From Parvivirga hydrogeniphila (GTDB lineage Bacteria > Actinomycetota > Coriobacteriia > Anaerosomatales > Anaerosomataceae), in the NCBI RefSeq assembly GCF_023371205.1, contig NZ_JAMCCO010000001.1:802662-866661 (forward strand): a DNA stretch of 64,000 nucleotides, read 5' to 3'. Positions 6,426 through 11,327 of this stretch are shown piece by piece; the first letter of the stretch is position 1, and each line of letters opens with the position of its first letter. The notes under the pieces are model-generated. The model had not been told where the DNA came from and did not search any database. It saw nothing but the letters and a program-made list of their open reading frames with translations. Both the position numbers and the translations under genes were made by a program.

Positions 6426-6658
6426 TGCTTCCATCCGGGTCTGTGGTTGCGGGCGCTTCGGCGCCTTAGTCCAGGGTAGGCGCGGCCGAAAGGACCCACG
6501 TAAGCCGGAGGCCATGCCTCCGTGTGAGCATGGCGCGCCTTAGGGGTAAGTCGCACCGTCCGCTTCGGCGGGCGAGAGGGCCGGTAGTGAGATAGCATCA
6601 AGCGGAAGCCCCAGTGCGCGAGTGTGGGGCCAAAGACCAGGTCAGCCGGATGGAAGCA
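6426..6658 (+). ncRNA. Candidate structured RNA, possibly the raiA-motif RNA
   Basis: The gap between comF and the transporter is filled by a compact 233-nt RNA candidate. Its ends form a perfect 13-bp stem: TGCTTCCATCCGG (6426-6438) with CCGGATGGAAGCA (6646-6658). Inside are further hairpins: GGGCGC-TTCG-GCGCC near 6451-6465, GGAGGCCATGCCTCC near 6509-6523, a CGTCCGC-TTCG-GCGGGCG stem near 6559-6576, and GCCCCA...TGTGGGGC near 6608-6630. Size, the closed outer stem and the position right after comF fit the raiA-motif RNA of Firmicutes and Actinobacteria, usually found near raiA/hpf. I could not compare it with the family consensus, so the identity is an inference. The structure itself is directly visible. 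Confidence 0.55.
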
Positions 6659-6690: not shown

Positions 6691-7569
6691 ATGAAGCGAG
6701 ACGGCATGCGCTGGCGAGCATTTGCCGTAGCGGCGGTCGTGGCGCTCGCGCTTGCGGGCGTCGGCTGCCAGAAGAAGGCAGAGGGGCCCGCATTGACGCC
6801 GAAGGTGGCGCCACCAGCCATCAAGCAGGCCGGCGTGCTCACGGCAGCCATCGATCCGACGCAACCGCCGTTCGCCGGTACGGTCGACGGCCAGGTGGAC
6901 GGCCTGGACGTCGACGTAGCTGCTGCGCTCGCCGAGCGTCTCGGACTGAAGCTCAAGATCGTCGAGATGCCGTGGAGCGATGTCCCGGCTGCGGTGGCCA
7001 AGGGTGCGGTTGACGTCGGCTTTGCAGCGATTCCAATCACAGACGCCGTGCTCGCGAATGTATCGGTCGCGGGTTCGTACGCGACCGACGGCATCGGTCT
7101 GTTCGGCGTCGCCACGTCGCAGACAGCAGAGGCGACTGCATCTGTGGCACCGGAGCAGGCGGCCTCTCTCGTCAGTGGAGCGCGCGTTGCATGCCAGTCC
7201 GGGTCTGCTGCGCAGTGGTACCTCGAATCGGAGTACTGGGAAGGGTTCGCCATCACCTACGACACCGTCCGTGAGGCGTTCGACGCGCTTATCGCAGGCG
7301 AGGTCGACTACGTGGCGTGCGACGCGTTCGTCGGCGCGTACCTCTCTCGGGACTACCAGAACGTCCGGTTCGTCGCGCCGCTCGGCGAGGCGACGCCGCT
7401 CGGCGTGCTGGTCGCGAAGGACTCGACCGACCTCGAGAGCGCTGTGCGCGACGTCCTCGACGGCATGGCGGCAGATGGGACGTTGGCGACGATCCGGACG
7501 AAGTGGGTGGGGGACTTGCCCGAACTGCGGGCGCTCGGCTCATCCGAGACGACCGGCTCGACTCAATAG
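6691..7569 (+). CDS. Amino-acid ABC transporter substrate-binding protein (family 3), normal domain order
   Basis: A 292-residue lipoprotein-like binding protein of the polar amino acid (SBP family 3) type. The ATG at 6691 follows GGAGG at 6678-6682. It has a signal peptide with cysteine near residue 23 (ALAGVGC), so it is probably membrane-anchored. Lobe 1 begins AGVLTAAIDPTQPPFAG with GLDVDVAAALAERLG. Lobe 2 follows with GARVACQSGSAAQWY and ends in the usual ATIRTKWVGDLPEL. The family's ligand-gripping Arg and Asp positions are not clear here. It is the first gene after the structured RNA and begins 32 bases beyond its closing stem. It belongs to the transporter unit ending with the ATPase at 10687. 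Confidence 0.85.
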   Translation: MKRDGMRWRAFAVAAVVALALAGVGCQKKAEGPALTPKVAPPAIKQAGVLTAAIDPTQPPFAGTVDGQVDGLDVDVAAALAERLGLKLKIVEMPWSDVPAAVAKGAVDVGFAAIPITDAVLANVSVAGSYATDGIGLFGVATSQTAEATASVAPEQAASLVSGARVACQSGSAAQWYLESEYWEGFAITYDTVREAFDALIAGEVDYVACDAFVGAYLSRDYQNVRFVAPLGEATPLGVLVAKDSTDLESAVRDVLDGMAADGTLATIRTKWVGDLPELRALGSSETTGSTQ

Positions 7570-7706: not shown

Positions 7707-8576
7707 ATGAGCAGGTTCCGCAAGGCGCTCGCACTGGCAGTCGTGTGCGCTCTGGCTCTGAGCGCTCTCGCGCTCGGCGGGTGCGCCAAGAAGGAAGACA
7801 CCGGCACTGGCGGCGAGACCGGTGCGCGGGTCATCAAGAGCGTGGACGATCTGAAGAGCGGCGACAAGGTCGGCGTCCAGTCCGGGACGACGGGCGAGGA
7901 GTGGGCGAAGAAGAACCTCGCGCCCAAGGGCGTCCAGGTCGTGCCGTACGATGACGTCCTCCTCGCGTTCCAGGCGCTGCAGGCGGGCGACGTCGTTGGT
8001 GTCATCAACGACCTGCCGATTTCCCAAGACATCGTGAAGGATGAAACGCGCGGGCTGGAGATCGTCCAGGAGATCAAGACCGACGAGACGTATGGGTTCG
8101 CCTTCAACAAGAACAACCCGACGCTGCGCGACGCGGTGAACTGGGCGCTCGCCGAGGTCATCAAGGACGGGACGTACAACGAGATCTACAAGAAGTGGTT
8201 CGGTTCCGAGCCGATGTCGATGCCTGAGGCGACCAGCGGCGTTAGCGAGAAGCCGGCCGGCGAGATCAAGACGCTCACCCCCGGGAAGATCATCGTCGGG
8301 TCCGACACCGCCTTCCCGCCCTTCGAAAATGTCGAGGGTGGCGAGATTGTGGGGTTCGACGTCGACCTCATGAAGGCGATCGGAGAGAAGCTCGGGATGG
8401 ACGTCGAGTTCAAGAGCTACAAGTTCGACGCGCTCATCACCGGCCTGCAGGCCGGCACCGAGTTCGACATGGTCGCGTCGGCGATGACGATCACCGAGGA
8501 GCGCAAGCAGTCGGTGGACTTCTCGGATCCGTACATCAACTCCAACCAGTCCCTCGCCGTCCGCAAGGCCAAGTAG
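7707..8576 (+). CDS. Amino-acid ABC transporter substrate-binding protein with circularly permuted lobes
   Basis: A 289-residue SBP family 3 protein whose halves are in reversed order. The ATG at 7707 follows AGGAGG (7697-7702); the signal peptide ends in LALGGCAKK, a lipoprotein site. Residues ~38-175 correspond to the normal second part of the family: VDDLKSGDKVGVQSGTTGEE through GTYNEIYKKWFG, which usually ends the protein. After a short linker, residues ~190-289 are the normal beginning: PGKIIVGSDTAFPPFENVEG, GFDVDLMKAIGEKLG, MTITEERKQSVDFSDPY and SNQSLAVRK. All parts needed for a complete two-lobe fold are present, so this looks like a functional permutation and not a fragment. It precedes the permease and ATPase. 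Confidence 0.85.
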   Translation: MSRFRKALALAVVCALALSALALGGCAKKEDTGTGGETGARVIKSVDDLKSGDKVGVQSGTTGEEWAKKNLAPKGVQVVPYDDVLLAFQALQAGDVVGVINDLPISQDIVKDETRGLEIVQEIKTDETYGFAFNKNNPTLRDAVNWALAEVIKDGTYNEIYKKWFGSEPMSMPEATSGVSEKPAGEIKTLTPGKIIVGSDTAFPPFENVEGGEIVGFDVDLMKAIGEKLGMDVEFKSYKFDALITGLQAGTEFDMVASAMTITEERKQSVDFSDPYINSNQSLAVRKAK

Positions 8577-8680: not shown

Positions 8681-9931
8681 GTGAAGCGGCACGTTCGCAC
8701 TCGCATCGTTCAGGCAGTGTATCTGACGCTGGGGATAGCGCTGCTCGCAGCGCTGCTCACGATGACCGGTCCGGAGCGGTTGACGTACGACCGTCCGGCG
8801 CCGCGGGGTCAGACCGGGATGGTGCGAGACGAGTTCCCGATTCCGCCGACGCTCGACGTCGTCACCATCGCGAGGCAGAACGCGAACGTCGTGCTGCCGC
8901 AGGCGACGCTTGCGCCGGGAAGCGTCGTGACGCTCAAGCGTCAGCCACCGGGTGGCGGCATGGGCTCTTCCACGTGGGTACTGGGGGCGGTCGAGACCTC
9001 CCCGGCGGTCCTGCTCAACGGTGCTCCGGTCGCTGGCGAGACGACGCTTGCTGATGGCGATGTGCTGACCGTGGGCGGCGTGCCGATCACCTTCGAGGCG
9101 GGCCGCCGAGGTGTCCTCGGTGCTCTGGACTGGTGGGAGACAGGCAAGGTCTCGCACCTGTTCGCATCGCCGAAGGTCATCGTGCAGGCCTTTCCCCAGG
9201 TGCTCAAGGCGTTCCCGGTGTCGCTGCTATGCGTCCTCGTGGCGTACCCGCTCGCGATCCCGATCGGTCTTGCGCTCGCCTTCATGAAGATGGCACGCTC
9301 AGGGTGGTTCCGGCTCCCATCGACCGCGTACATCGACTTCATCCGCGGCACGCCGCTGTTCTTGCAGATCCTCATCGTCTTTTTCGGGCTCCCGCTCCTG
9401 CCCCCGTGGCAAGCGCTGCTTGCGGCGTTCCCGGGACTCAATGAGCCAGGGCCGTTCGGGCCGACGTACTCGTTGTACGTCCGCACGTTCGCGGTGCTGT
9501 CGTTCAACTCCGCCGCGTACATGGCCGAGATCTTCCGCGCCGGCATCCAGTCCATCAACAAGGGCCAGATGGAGGCGGCGCGCTCGCTCGGCATGACCAC
9601 TCCGCAGGCGATGGCCTTCGTCATCATCCCGCAGACGGTCAGGCGCATACTCCCGACGATGATGTCCGAGTTCATCTTGCTGTTCAAAGACACCTCGCTG
9701 CTGGCGGCGGTCGGCATGGGCGAGATGGTGATGCGAGCGCGGGAGGCGGCCTCCTCGACCTACAACGTCTCGCCGTACCTGCTCGCAGCGGCGTTCTACC
9801 TCGTGGTGACCATCCCGCTCGGTCGTCTGGTGCACCGGCTGGAGAACCGGCTGGCGCAGTCCGAGGGCGGAGGGATATCCGTGTCGGAGAGCGTGCCGAC
9901 CATCGATTCCGAGCACGCGATAGCGGTGTGA
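8681..9931 (+). CDS. Polar amino-acid ABC transporter permease with extra N-terminal domain
   Basis: The C-terminal ~250 residues are a permease of the His/Glu/Gln/Arg family. The coupling-helix (EAA) motif is seen in EIFRAGIQSINKGQMEAARS, with IRGTPLFLQILIVFFGLP before it and FKDTSLLAAVGMGEM after it. The protein is 416 residues against the usual ~220-250. A first membrane segment (residues ~10-30) is followed by ~130 extra residues ending VLLNGAPVAGETTLADGDVL, which resembles the last strands of an FHA-like beta sandwich and probably faces outward. GAGGAGGA at 8668-8675 precedes the GTG start. It pairs with the two binding proteins upstream and the ATPase downstream. Confidence 0.88.
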   Translation: MKRHVRTRIVQAVYLTLGIALLAALLTMTGPERLTYDRPAPRGQTGMVRDEFPIPPTLDVVTIARQNANVVLPQATLAPGSVVTLKRQPPGGGMGSSTWVLGAVETSPAVLLNGAPVAGETTLADGDVLTVGGVPITFEAGRRGVLGALDWWETGKVSHLFASPKVIVQAFPQVLKAFPVSLLCVLVAYPLAIPIGLALAFMKMARSGWFRLPSTAYIDFIRGTPLFLQILIVFFGLPLLPPWQALLAAFPGLNEPGPFGPTYSLYVRTFAVLSFNSAAYMAEIFRAGIQSINKGQMEAARSLGMTTPQAMAFVIIPQTVRRILPTMMSEFILLFKDTSLLAAVGMGEMVMRAREAASSTYNVSPYLLAAAFYLVVTIPLGRLVHRLENRLAQSEGGGISVSESVPTIDSEHAIAV

Positions 9932-9943
9932 GAAGGGGCGCGA

Positions 9944-10687
9944 ATGGATCCCAGCAGCGAGCCGGTCGTCCGCATCAAGGGGCTCCGCAAGCGTTTCGGA
10001 GACCTCGAGGTCCTGCGCGGCGTCGACATGGACGTGCGCAAGGGCGAGGTCGTCGTCATCCTCGGGCCGTCGGGCTCAGGCAAGTCCACGCTGCTGCGCT
10101 GCGTGAACCGGCTTGAGGAGCCCACGGGCGGCGAGGTGTGGTTCGAGGACATCCTTGTGAACAGCCCCAAGACCGACATCAACCGCGTGCGCGAGAAGAT
10201 CGGGATGGTCTTCCAGAGCTTCAACCTGTTCCCGCACCTCACCGCCAAAGGCAACGTGATGCTCGCACAGCGCAAGGTGCTCAAGCGCTCGAAGGAAGAG
10301 GCCGAGCGCATCGCCGTCGAGCAGCTCACGCGCGTGGGGCTCGCCGACCGCATCGACTACTACCCGGCGCAGCTCTCCGGAGGCCAACAGCAACGCGTCG
10401 CCATCGCCCGGGCGCTCGCGATGGATCCGCACGTCATGCTGTTCGACGAGGTGACCTCCGCGCTCGATCCCGAGCTGGTGCGCGGCGTGCTCGACGTGAT
10501 GAAGCAGCTCGCGCTCGGCGGCATGACGATGCTCGTGGTGACGCACGAGATGGGGTTCGCGCGCGACGTCGCAGACCGCGTCGTGTTCATGGACGGGGGC
10601 GTCATCGTCGAAGAGGGGCTTCCGGACGAGGTGTTCGACAACCCCAAGCACGAGCGCACCAAGGACTTCCTGGGGCACATCAGCTAG
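9944..10687 (+). CDS. Polar amino-acid ABC transporter ATP-binding protein
   Basis: A 247-residue ATPase of the GlnQ/HisP type that energises the transporter encoded just upstream. All motifs are intact: Walker [10 protein letters not shown] (~residue 46), Q-loop in [13 protein letters not shown], signature [15 protein letters not shown], Walker [15 protein letters not shown], and the H-loop in [17 protein letters not shown]. Length and order are typical. It starts 12 bases after the permease stop. Substrate specificity (glutamine, glutamate, arginine, histidine or cystine) cannot be settled from the sequence. Confidence 0.95.
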
Positions 10688-10790
10688 CGTCTGCAGTGGG
10701 TGCTGCCGGGACCAAGGTGCGCCGAGCTCTCGTACCAACTCAGGGCGGTTGGGTATCTTCAAAGTGTCCGACCACGTGAGGAGGTCTGCG

Positions 10791-11327
10791 ATGAACACAG
10801 TCGTGAAGGGTCGCCACATGGATGTCACGCCGGCTCTCCGCGAGTACGCGGAAGAGAAAATCGGCAAGGCCGCCAAGCTTCTGAACGATCACATGGTGAT
10901 GAGCATCGAGATCGAACTGAGCGCTGAGCGCAACCCGGCGATCGAGAAGAAGCACGTGGCGGAGGTCACGCTGTTCACGAAAGGCCACGTCATTCGGGCG
11001 AAGGAGGCCGCCGTCGACATGTACGCGGCCATCGACCTTGTGTCCGAGAAGCTCGAGCGCCAAGTCCAGAAGCTCAAGACGAAGCTGCAGAACCGTCACA
11101 AGGCCGCTGCGCCGGCGATTGCCGAAGCGGCTCCTGTTGAGGAGTCCGAGCCGAGCATCGTCAAGCGGAAGGTCATCGAGGTCAAGCCGATGGCGCCTGA
11201 AGAGGCGGCGCTGCAGATGGAGCTTCTGGGGCACGACTTCTTCGTGTTCGCTTCGGCTGAGACCGAGAGCATCAACGTGCTGTATCGCAGGAGCGACGGC
11301 GACTACGGACTCATCGTCCCACGGTAG
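10791..11327 (+). CDS. hpf: Ribosome hibernation promoting factor, long form
   Basis: A 178-residue long-form HPF (RaiA/YfiA family) that dimerises and inactivates 70S ribosomes as 100S particles in starvation. The ATG at 10791 follows GAGGAGG (10778-10784). The N-terminal S30AE domain covers residues ~1-105 (VKGRHMDVTPALREYAEEK). A lysine-rich linker leads to the C-terminal dimerisation domain (~125-178) with FFVFASAETESINVLYRR and DGDYGLIVP. A weak TATCTT at 10754-10759 may be its -10. An intrinsic terminator follows. In related genomes this gene commonly lies next to comF and secA; here both are several kilobases away. Confidence 0.95.
   Translation: MNTVVKGRHMDVTPALREYAEEKIGKAAKLLNDHMVMSIEIELSAERNPAIEKKHVAEVTLFTKGHVIRAKEAAVDMYAAIDLVSEKLERQVQKLKTKLQNRHKAAAPAIAEAAPVEESEPSIVKRKVIEVKPMAPEEAALQMELLGHDFFVFASAETESINVLYRRSDGDYGLIVPR

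Follow-up and report, generated by a model that had tools for sequence, protein, structure and literature searches.

A naturally circularly permuted family 3 substrate-binding lipoprotein in an amino-acid ABC importer locus, and evidence that its family was permuted repeatedly

Introduction

Can a family 3 substrate-binding protein (SBP) whose two parts stand in swapped order along the chain be a complete and working receptor, and if so, how did it come about and how often has this happened? The question is raised by one gene in a 64,000-nucleotide stretch of the Parvivirga hydrogeniphila genome (the whole of this stretch is called the window below). An earlier note, made from the letters alone, had read the product of this gene as a circularly permuted SBP with a complete two-lobe fold. 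It derived the gene from a tandem duplication followed by loss of the outer halves, and it named the adjacent upstream gene as a plausible partner in that event.

Results

Both parts of the protein are complete and stand in swapped order

The reading frame is uninterrupted (ATG at 7707, stop codon at 8574-8576, 289 codons), and a ribosome-binding site, AGGAGG, lies just upstream of the ATG. Its product, here called SBPB-perm (Table 1), belongs to the family by profile, with matches to SBP_bac_3 (PF00497) in two stretches that reach 143 bits against a gathering cut-off of 26.4 bits. When the protein is compared with the PDB by phmmer, residues 193-288 align to 10-105 of AncQR, a chain of normal order (4zv1; E 2e-50), and residues 41-166 align to 107-232 of the same chain.

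On a profile of 251 positions built from normal-order relatives, SBPB-perm covers positions 125-250 and then 7-122, with none lost. Because 125-250 precedes 7-122 on this profile without loss, the swapped order is confirmed, and SBPB-perm is a true circular permutation in which both parts are complete, as the earlier note had claimed. In canonical members lobe 2 stands between the start and the end of lobe 1. This chain departs from that order, with its cut directly behind the strand of the first inter-lobe crossover, and given its segment order we class it as a permuted variant and not as a canonical member. The same note had divided the protein near residue 180. The division itself holds, but there is no single point of division, and a linker at about residues 167-192 takes its place.

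Table 1. Features of the permuted gene and of its operon (window positions; aa, residues of the precursor)
Feature	Position	Strand	Length or basis
raiA RNA (RF03072, 163.6 bits), operon head, between comF and SBPA; no part in the permutation	6430..6654	+	
SBPA, normal-order family 3 SBP, distant paralogue (~29% identical to SBPB-perm)	6691..7569	+	
SBPB-perm, circularly permuted family 3 substrate-binding lipoprotein	7707..8576	+	289 aa
Lipoprotein signal peptide of SBPB-perm, lipobox LGGC at its end (Cys26)	7707..7784	+	sequence
Low-complexity spacer, aa 27-42, from the lipidated Cys to the permuted domain	7785..7832	+	
Normal second part, aa 43-166: lobe 2, second crossover, C-terminal helices (..YKKWFG)	7833..8204	+	
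Linker, aa 167-192: old C-tail (SEPMSMP) plus old N-spacer (..GEIKTLTP)	8205..8282	+	versus six sister normal-order proteins
Normal first part, aa 193-289: lobe 1 up to and including the first hinge strand (SLAVRK)	8283..8573	+	
ABC amino-acid permease (PAAT type) with an extracytoplasmic insertion at its N-terminus; segregates together with SBPB	8681..9931	+	
ABC ATPase, GlnQ-like	9944..10687	+	

The permuted chain is predicted to form the usual two lobes

An AlphaFold2 model, computed from an alignment of 18 permuted orthologues, predicts a two-lobe flytrap fold (pLDDT 89.1, pTM 0.83), with pLDDT below 50 only in mature residues 1-14. The complete fold that had been expected from the sequence is thus borne out by a prediction, and its confidence is close to that of the model of a normal-order orthologue, L136 (pLDDT 90.6), which lies near open GlnBP (1ggg, TM 0.91 on target). 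A sequential structure search is blind to a permuted full-length match (TMq 0.31-0.43), and the segments were instead aligned individually with VIA-align. Residues 15-149 of the model match LAO 99-238 (6mln, Z 12.1), and residues 161-257 match both domain 1 of TmArgBP (residues 2-98; 6gpc, Z 10.5, rmsd 1.8) and domain A of LAO (6xks, rmsd 1.0). Superposition of the two parts on LAO and TmArgBP gives an rmsd of 1.0-3.3 overall and of 1.0-2.0 for the domain 1 part.

The last strand of the permuted model (256-261, NQSLAV) is the strand that precedes the first crossover in the L136 model (116-121). That the permuted chain stops at this strand suggests a cut in the first inter-lobe crossover, which would leave only the second (YGFAFN) covalent.

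The ligand motifs are kept, with TxxxxR in lobe 1 and SGTTG and ND in lobe 2. In mature numbering, T236 and R241 (lobe 1) and S34, T36 and D77 (lobe 2) are invariant in 18 permuted sequences, so that SBPB-perm has the conserved contacts to an α-amino acid, Thr/Arg from lobe 1 and Ser/Thr plus Asp from lobe 2. The roles of these five residues in ligand binding are assumed here from what is known of GlnBP and LAO.

The linker preserves the ends of the ancestral chain

Six sister normal-order proteins (L136-L141) end in WFGA(E/D/P)P(L/T)SIP, and their domain starts with (F/L)xT(L/I)(T/V)(E/P)G(K/R)IIVGSD. In most permuted proteins the linker has the form WFGxxPMS(M/I/Y)P...TL(T)xGKIIVGSD, with divergence at (K)TLT in a few; the SIP tail is absent from other normal-order groups. 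The linker therefore joins the old C-tail (..WFGAEPLSIP) of the sister proteins to their old N-spacer (..TLTPGKIIVGSD). Because it is made of an old C-terminus followed by an old mature N-terminus, it supports tandem duplication, fusion and loss of the outer halves, the origin that the earlier note had proposed.

On this model, tandem duplication of a normal-order SBPB gene would have been followed by a fusion that joined the first copy, at its C-terminus, to the second copy, at its mature N-terminus, and by deletions, inferred from the footprint in the linker, that removed both outer halves. After this loss the signal peptide would lead directly into lobe 2, and the chain would end in lobe 1, after its first hinge strand. 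Tandem normal-order SBPBs are found at three other loci in the class (L177, L178, L181), so the duplication needed as an intermediate does occur, although no surviving sig-H1-H2-H1-H2 intermediate in the form of one free SBP was seen at this locus. To judge by these comparisons, the source of the permuted gene is a copy of SBPB itself. SBPA, the upstream neighbour put forward in the earlier note, was rejected as donor: its identity to SBPB-perm is too low (Table 1), and it neighbours SBPB of both lobe orders.

The permuted gene is conserved at one chromosomal slot

A junction-spanning query matches 62 of the 69 genomes of the order, in 23 of them contiguously (permuted) and in 39 partially (normal-order). 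The permuted orthologues in the 23 genomes share 66-95% identity, and one of them is contiguous in a single-contig assembly of 1.84 Mb. Values of dN/dS between permuted pairs (0.05-0.14) indicate that the permuted form is under purifying selection. With their halves re-ordered, 22 permuted proteins form one clade (support 96/89), whose nearest relatives are the six normal-order proteins L136-L141; both halves of SBPB-perm are closest to these same proteins, at 75-81% and 65-72% identity.

Permuted and normal-order SBPB share the slot AEC-comF-SBPA-SBPB-permease-ATPase-HPF in almost every locus with sufficiently long flanks, and normal-order orthologues occupy the SBPB position in most non-permuted genomes of the order. 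SBPB-perm is a real and conserved circular permutant of an amino-acid SBP, and probably a functional one.

Several features of the surroundings are recorded here in their own right. The raiA RNA lies ahead of the ABC operon and an HPF/raiA gene (10749-11327) behind it, and the two thus enclose the entire importer. The insertion in the permease is about 140 aa long and FHA-like by eye; a link between this insertion and the permutation was rejected, since SBPB of either lobe order is accompanied by long permeases (416-449 aa) in some loci and by short ones (~285 aa) in others. At L171:2811-2921 (+), 59% of the SBPB signal peptide (residues 3-39) recurs in a further lipoprotein gene of the same genome. 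At L183:1666-3444 (+), a predicted Ser/Thr protein kinase is fused to a normal-order family 3 SBP domain, which is close kin of SBPB in that genome.

The flanking genes and the SBPB-permease pair have different histories

In trees of SBPA, HPF, comF and AEC, family f1 stays together (1-2 changes) and lobe order has to change 9-11 times, compared with 2 times in the permease tree, 5 in the ATPase tree and 1 in the SBPB tree. The flanking genes thus track taxonomy, whereas SBPB and the permease track lobe order. Signal-peptide identity is 0.67 within a genus across different lobe orders versus 0.54 between different f1 genera of the same lobe order; it is thus the genus and not the lobe order that the signal peptide follows. 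The simplest reading of this conflict between trees is that mature SBPB and the permease have been exchanged repeatedly between species while the locus stayed fixed. The resident signal peptide would have been kept or re-acquired during such exchanges.

Similar permutations occur in other lineages

At least five further permuted family 3 proteins are present in Actinomycetota, three from the class-wide search (L173, L174, L175) and two from the phylum-wide search (L185, L186). L174 and L175 stand at the same slot as the window gene, and L173 stands beside the same permease and ATPase. The cut lies inside lobe 2 in L173 and L174 (profile position ~150) and at the crossover in L175, L185 and L186. 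L173 nests among normal-order proteins of family f20, L174 and L175 among those of f25, and L185 groups beside its normal-order syntenic relatives L187 and L188.

A tree of 99 proteins has six changes of order, at least four of which are forced by well supported branches. A single clade of all 28 actinobacterial permuted proteins is rejected (p-AU 7e-34), as is a single clade of the 25 crossover-cut proteins when L186 is left out (p-AU 7e-8). Joining L174 and L175 in one clade is not rejected (p-AU 0.26), and five origins are therefore as plausible as six.

In Bacillota, at least 12 of 299 genomes have a single permuted SBP directly before a permease, and an ATPase is also present at 11 of these 12 loci. 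The cuts fall at four break sites, near profile positions 120, 132, 150 and 184-193. At L219:2938-3795 (-) the cut is near the second crossover (184-193), so nearly all of lobe 2 remains behind lobe 1. A Bacillota permease at L222:2029-4293 (+) carries two tandem permuted family 3 domains (H2-H1-H2-H1-BPD_transp_1).

No single permuted SBP was identified among the matches listed from 299 Pseudomonadota genomes; the full-span matches there lie in long frames (four of them above 2000 aa) and were left out of the permuted count. One candidate, L081 (26% match), was rejected as permuted, being by eye a tandem normal-order SBD protein. The junction profile, A3, detects only permutations that keep positions ~205-250 next to 7-80 and is blind to cuts within lobe 1, and all recurrence counts are for this reason lower bounds. 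The phylogenetic tests indicate that family 3 has been permuted independently several times in evolution.

Discussion

Considered together, the findings make it very probable that SBPB-perm is a working receptor of a PAAT importer that was circularly permuted by tandem duplication of SBPB, and that permutation of the same type is recurrent in family 3. The chain is predicted to fold as the usual flytrap, with a lipid tether that would enter at lobe 2 and with one of the two inter-lobe crossovers covalent. It would bind an amino acid and pass it to the adjacent permease and ATPase, and a role as amino-acid receptor for this ABC importer is its most likely function. The presence of SBPA beside SBPB-perm in nearly all loci could instead mean that SBPA is the transport receptor and that SBPB-perm has become a sensor or scavenger with no part in transport. 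We consider this improbable: the permease co-segregates with SBPB and not with SBPA, the ligand motifs are invariant, and the permuted SBPs of Bacillota stand directly before their own permease, nearly always with an ATPase. A benefit of the permutation itself is a tentative proposal, in which it recurs because the tether moves from lobe 1 to lobe 2 and a crossover is freed, and in which receptor and permease spread from species to species as one exchangeable module. If it is useful, the tether shift and the freed crossover would alter docking or opening and closing.

Other histories of the gene have to be weighed against duplication of SBPB. Lobe 2 and lobe 1 could have come from different paralogues through a fusion of unrelated half-genes, as was proposed for TpMglB-2 (PMC4990184), but both halves of SBPB-perm point to the same normal-order group, L136-L141, whose C-tail and N-spacer the linker also holds, and such a fusion is very unlikely. 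An assembly or binning artefact, in which a collapsed tandem repeat lends a normal gene a permuted look, has in its favour that the five actinobacterial singletons (L173-L175, L185, L186) each come from one draft genome. The window gene, however, occurs in 23 species with the same breakpoints, clean frames and low dN/dS, once in a single contig, and a collapse would not yield a gene in which the signal peptide leads straight into lobe 2 and lobe 1 is followed by the stop codon. For the window clade the artefact is refuted by the recurrence of the permutation in independent assemblies, and overall we give it hardly any credence. Within the window clade, finally, the permutation could be ancestral and the six normal-order sisters reversions. 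The permease tree nests these sisters inside the permuted clade (SH-aLRT 95-96), a placement that an AU test on the SBPB data fails to reject (p 0.28), so that either reversion or recombination between SBPB and permease may have occurred. The SBPB tree nevertheless unites the permuted proteins in one clade and the outgroups are of normal order, which leaves reversion unlikely, if less so than the other two histories.

As a rule, circular permutation in nature is inferred from comparisons of distantly related proteins. Beyond what the earlier note had claimed, family 3 is repeatedly permuted, and closely related orthologues of either order occupy one locus. These close orthologues share one chromosomal slot, the footprint of duplication is still legible in the linker, and there are several independent repeats in other lineages; the effects of the covalent crossover and of the tether position are therefore directly testable. 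The case is also a warning that annotation by collinear profiles overlooks lobe order, and natural permutants offer ready-made material for biosensor design.

Comparison with known systems

SBPB-perm is homologous over its full length to canonical type II/cluster F SBPs (GlnBP, LAO, ArtJ, AncQR) and has the same ligand motifs, the same predicted two-lobe fold and the same type of operon (PAAT importer). It differs from canonical family 3 SBPs in its swapped parts, in a tether that would be at lobe 2 and in having one covalent crossover where they have two. The tandem SBD1-SBD2 of GlnPQ (6h30) contains, within its H1-H2-H1-H2 chain, an H2-H1 stretch collinear with SBPB-perm. However, GlnPQ has two complete normal domains in one chain, whereas SBPB-perm is one permuted domain; with 289 aa and each half present once, it is not a tandem SBD fusion.

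We found no report of a natural permuted family 3 (type II) SBP in the open-access literature, and a sequence search found no solved structure of one. Another natural, lipid-anchored, circularly permuted ABC substrate-binding protein is TpMglB-2 (Tp0684) of Treponema pallidum, a type I glucose-binding SBP for which 'Type Ic / cluster Bc' was defined (PMC4990184). SBPB-perm falls outside that definition by its family 3 (type II) homology and its cut at the first crossover, whereas TpMglB-2 has a type I sugar-binding fold in which only the first N-lobe strands have moved and a fourth crossover has been added. The permuted segment of TpMglB-2 is only 13% identical to its counterpart and is suspected to come from another gene, and anchoring may, in the view of the authors who described the protein, favour the permuted topology (PMC4990184). 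All permuted cases that we inspected look like lipoproteins, which fits this idea but does not prove it.

Family 3 SBPs have also been permuted by design, as in FLIP-cpArgT194, FLIP-cpHisJ194 and cpFLIPR (PMC7503967). Like SBPB-perm, the engineered permutants have one inter-lobe linker cut and the old ends joined, and they retain ligand binding and closure (PMC5087393, PMC7503967). They are man-made, with a (GGS)4 linker in cpLAO-BP, whereas SBPB-perm is natural, conserved and recurrent and has a linker of native tails. Measured within a sensor in which it is fused to two fluorescent proteins, cpLAO-BP binds lysine with a Kd of 107 uM; for the native protein alone, a Kd of 3 uM is reported (PMC5087393). 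By analogy, this retained binding makes it plausible that the natural permutant functions as well.
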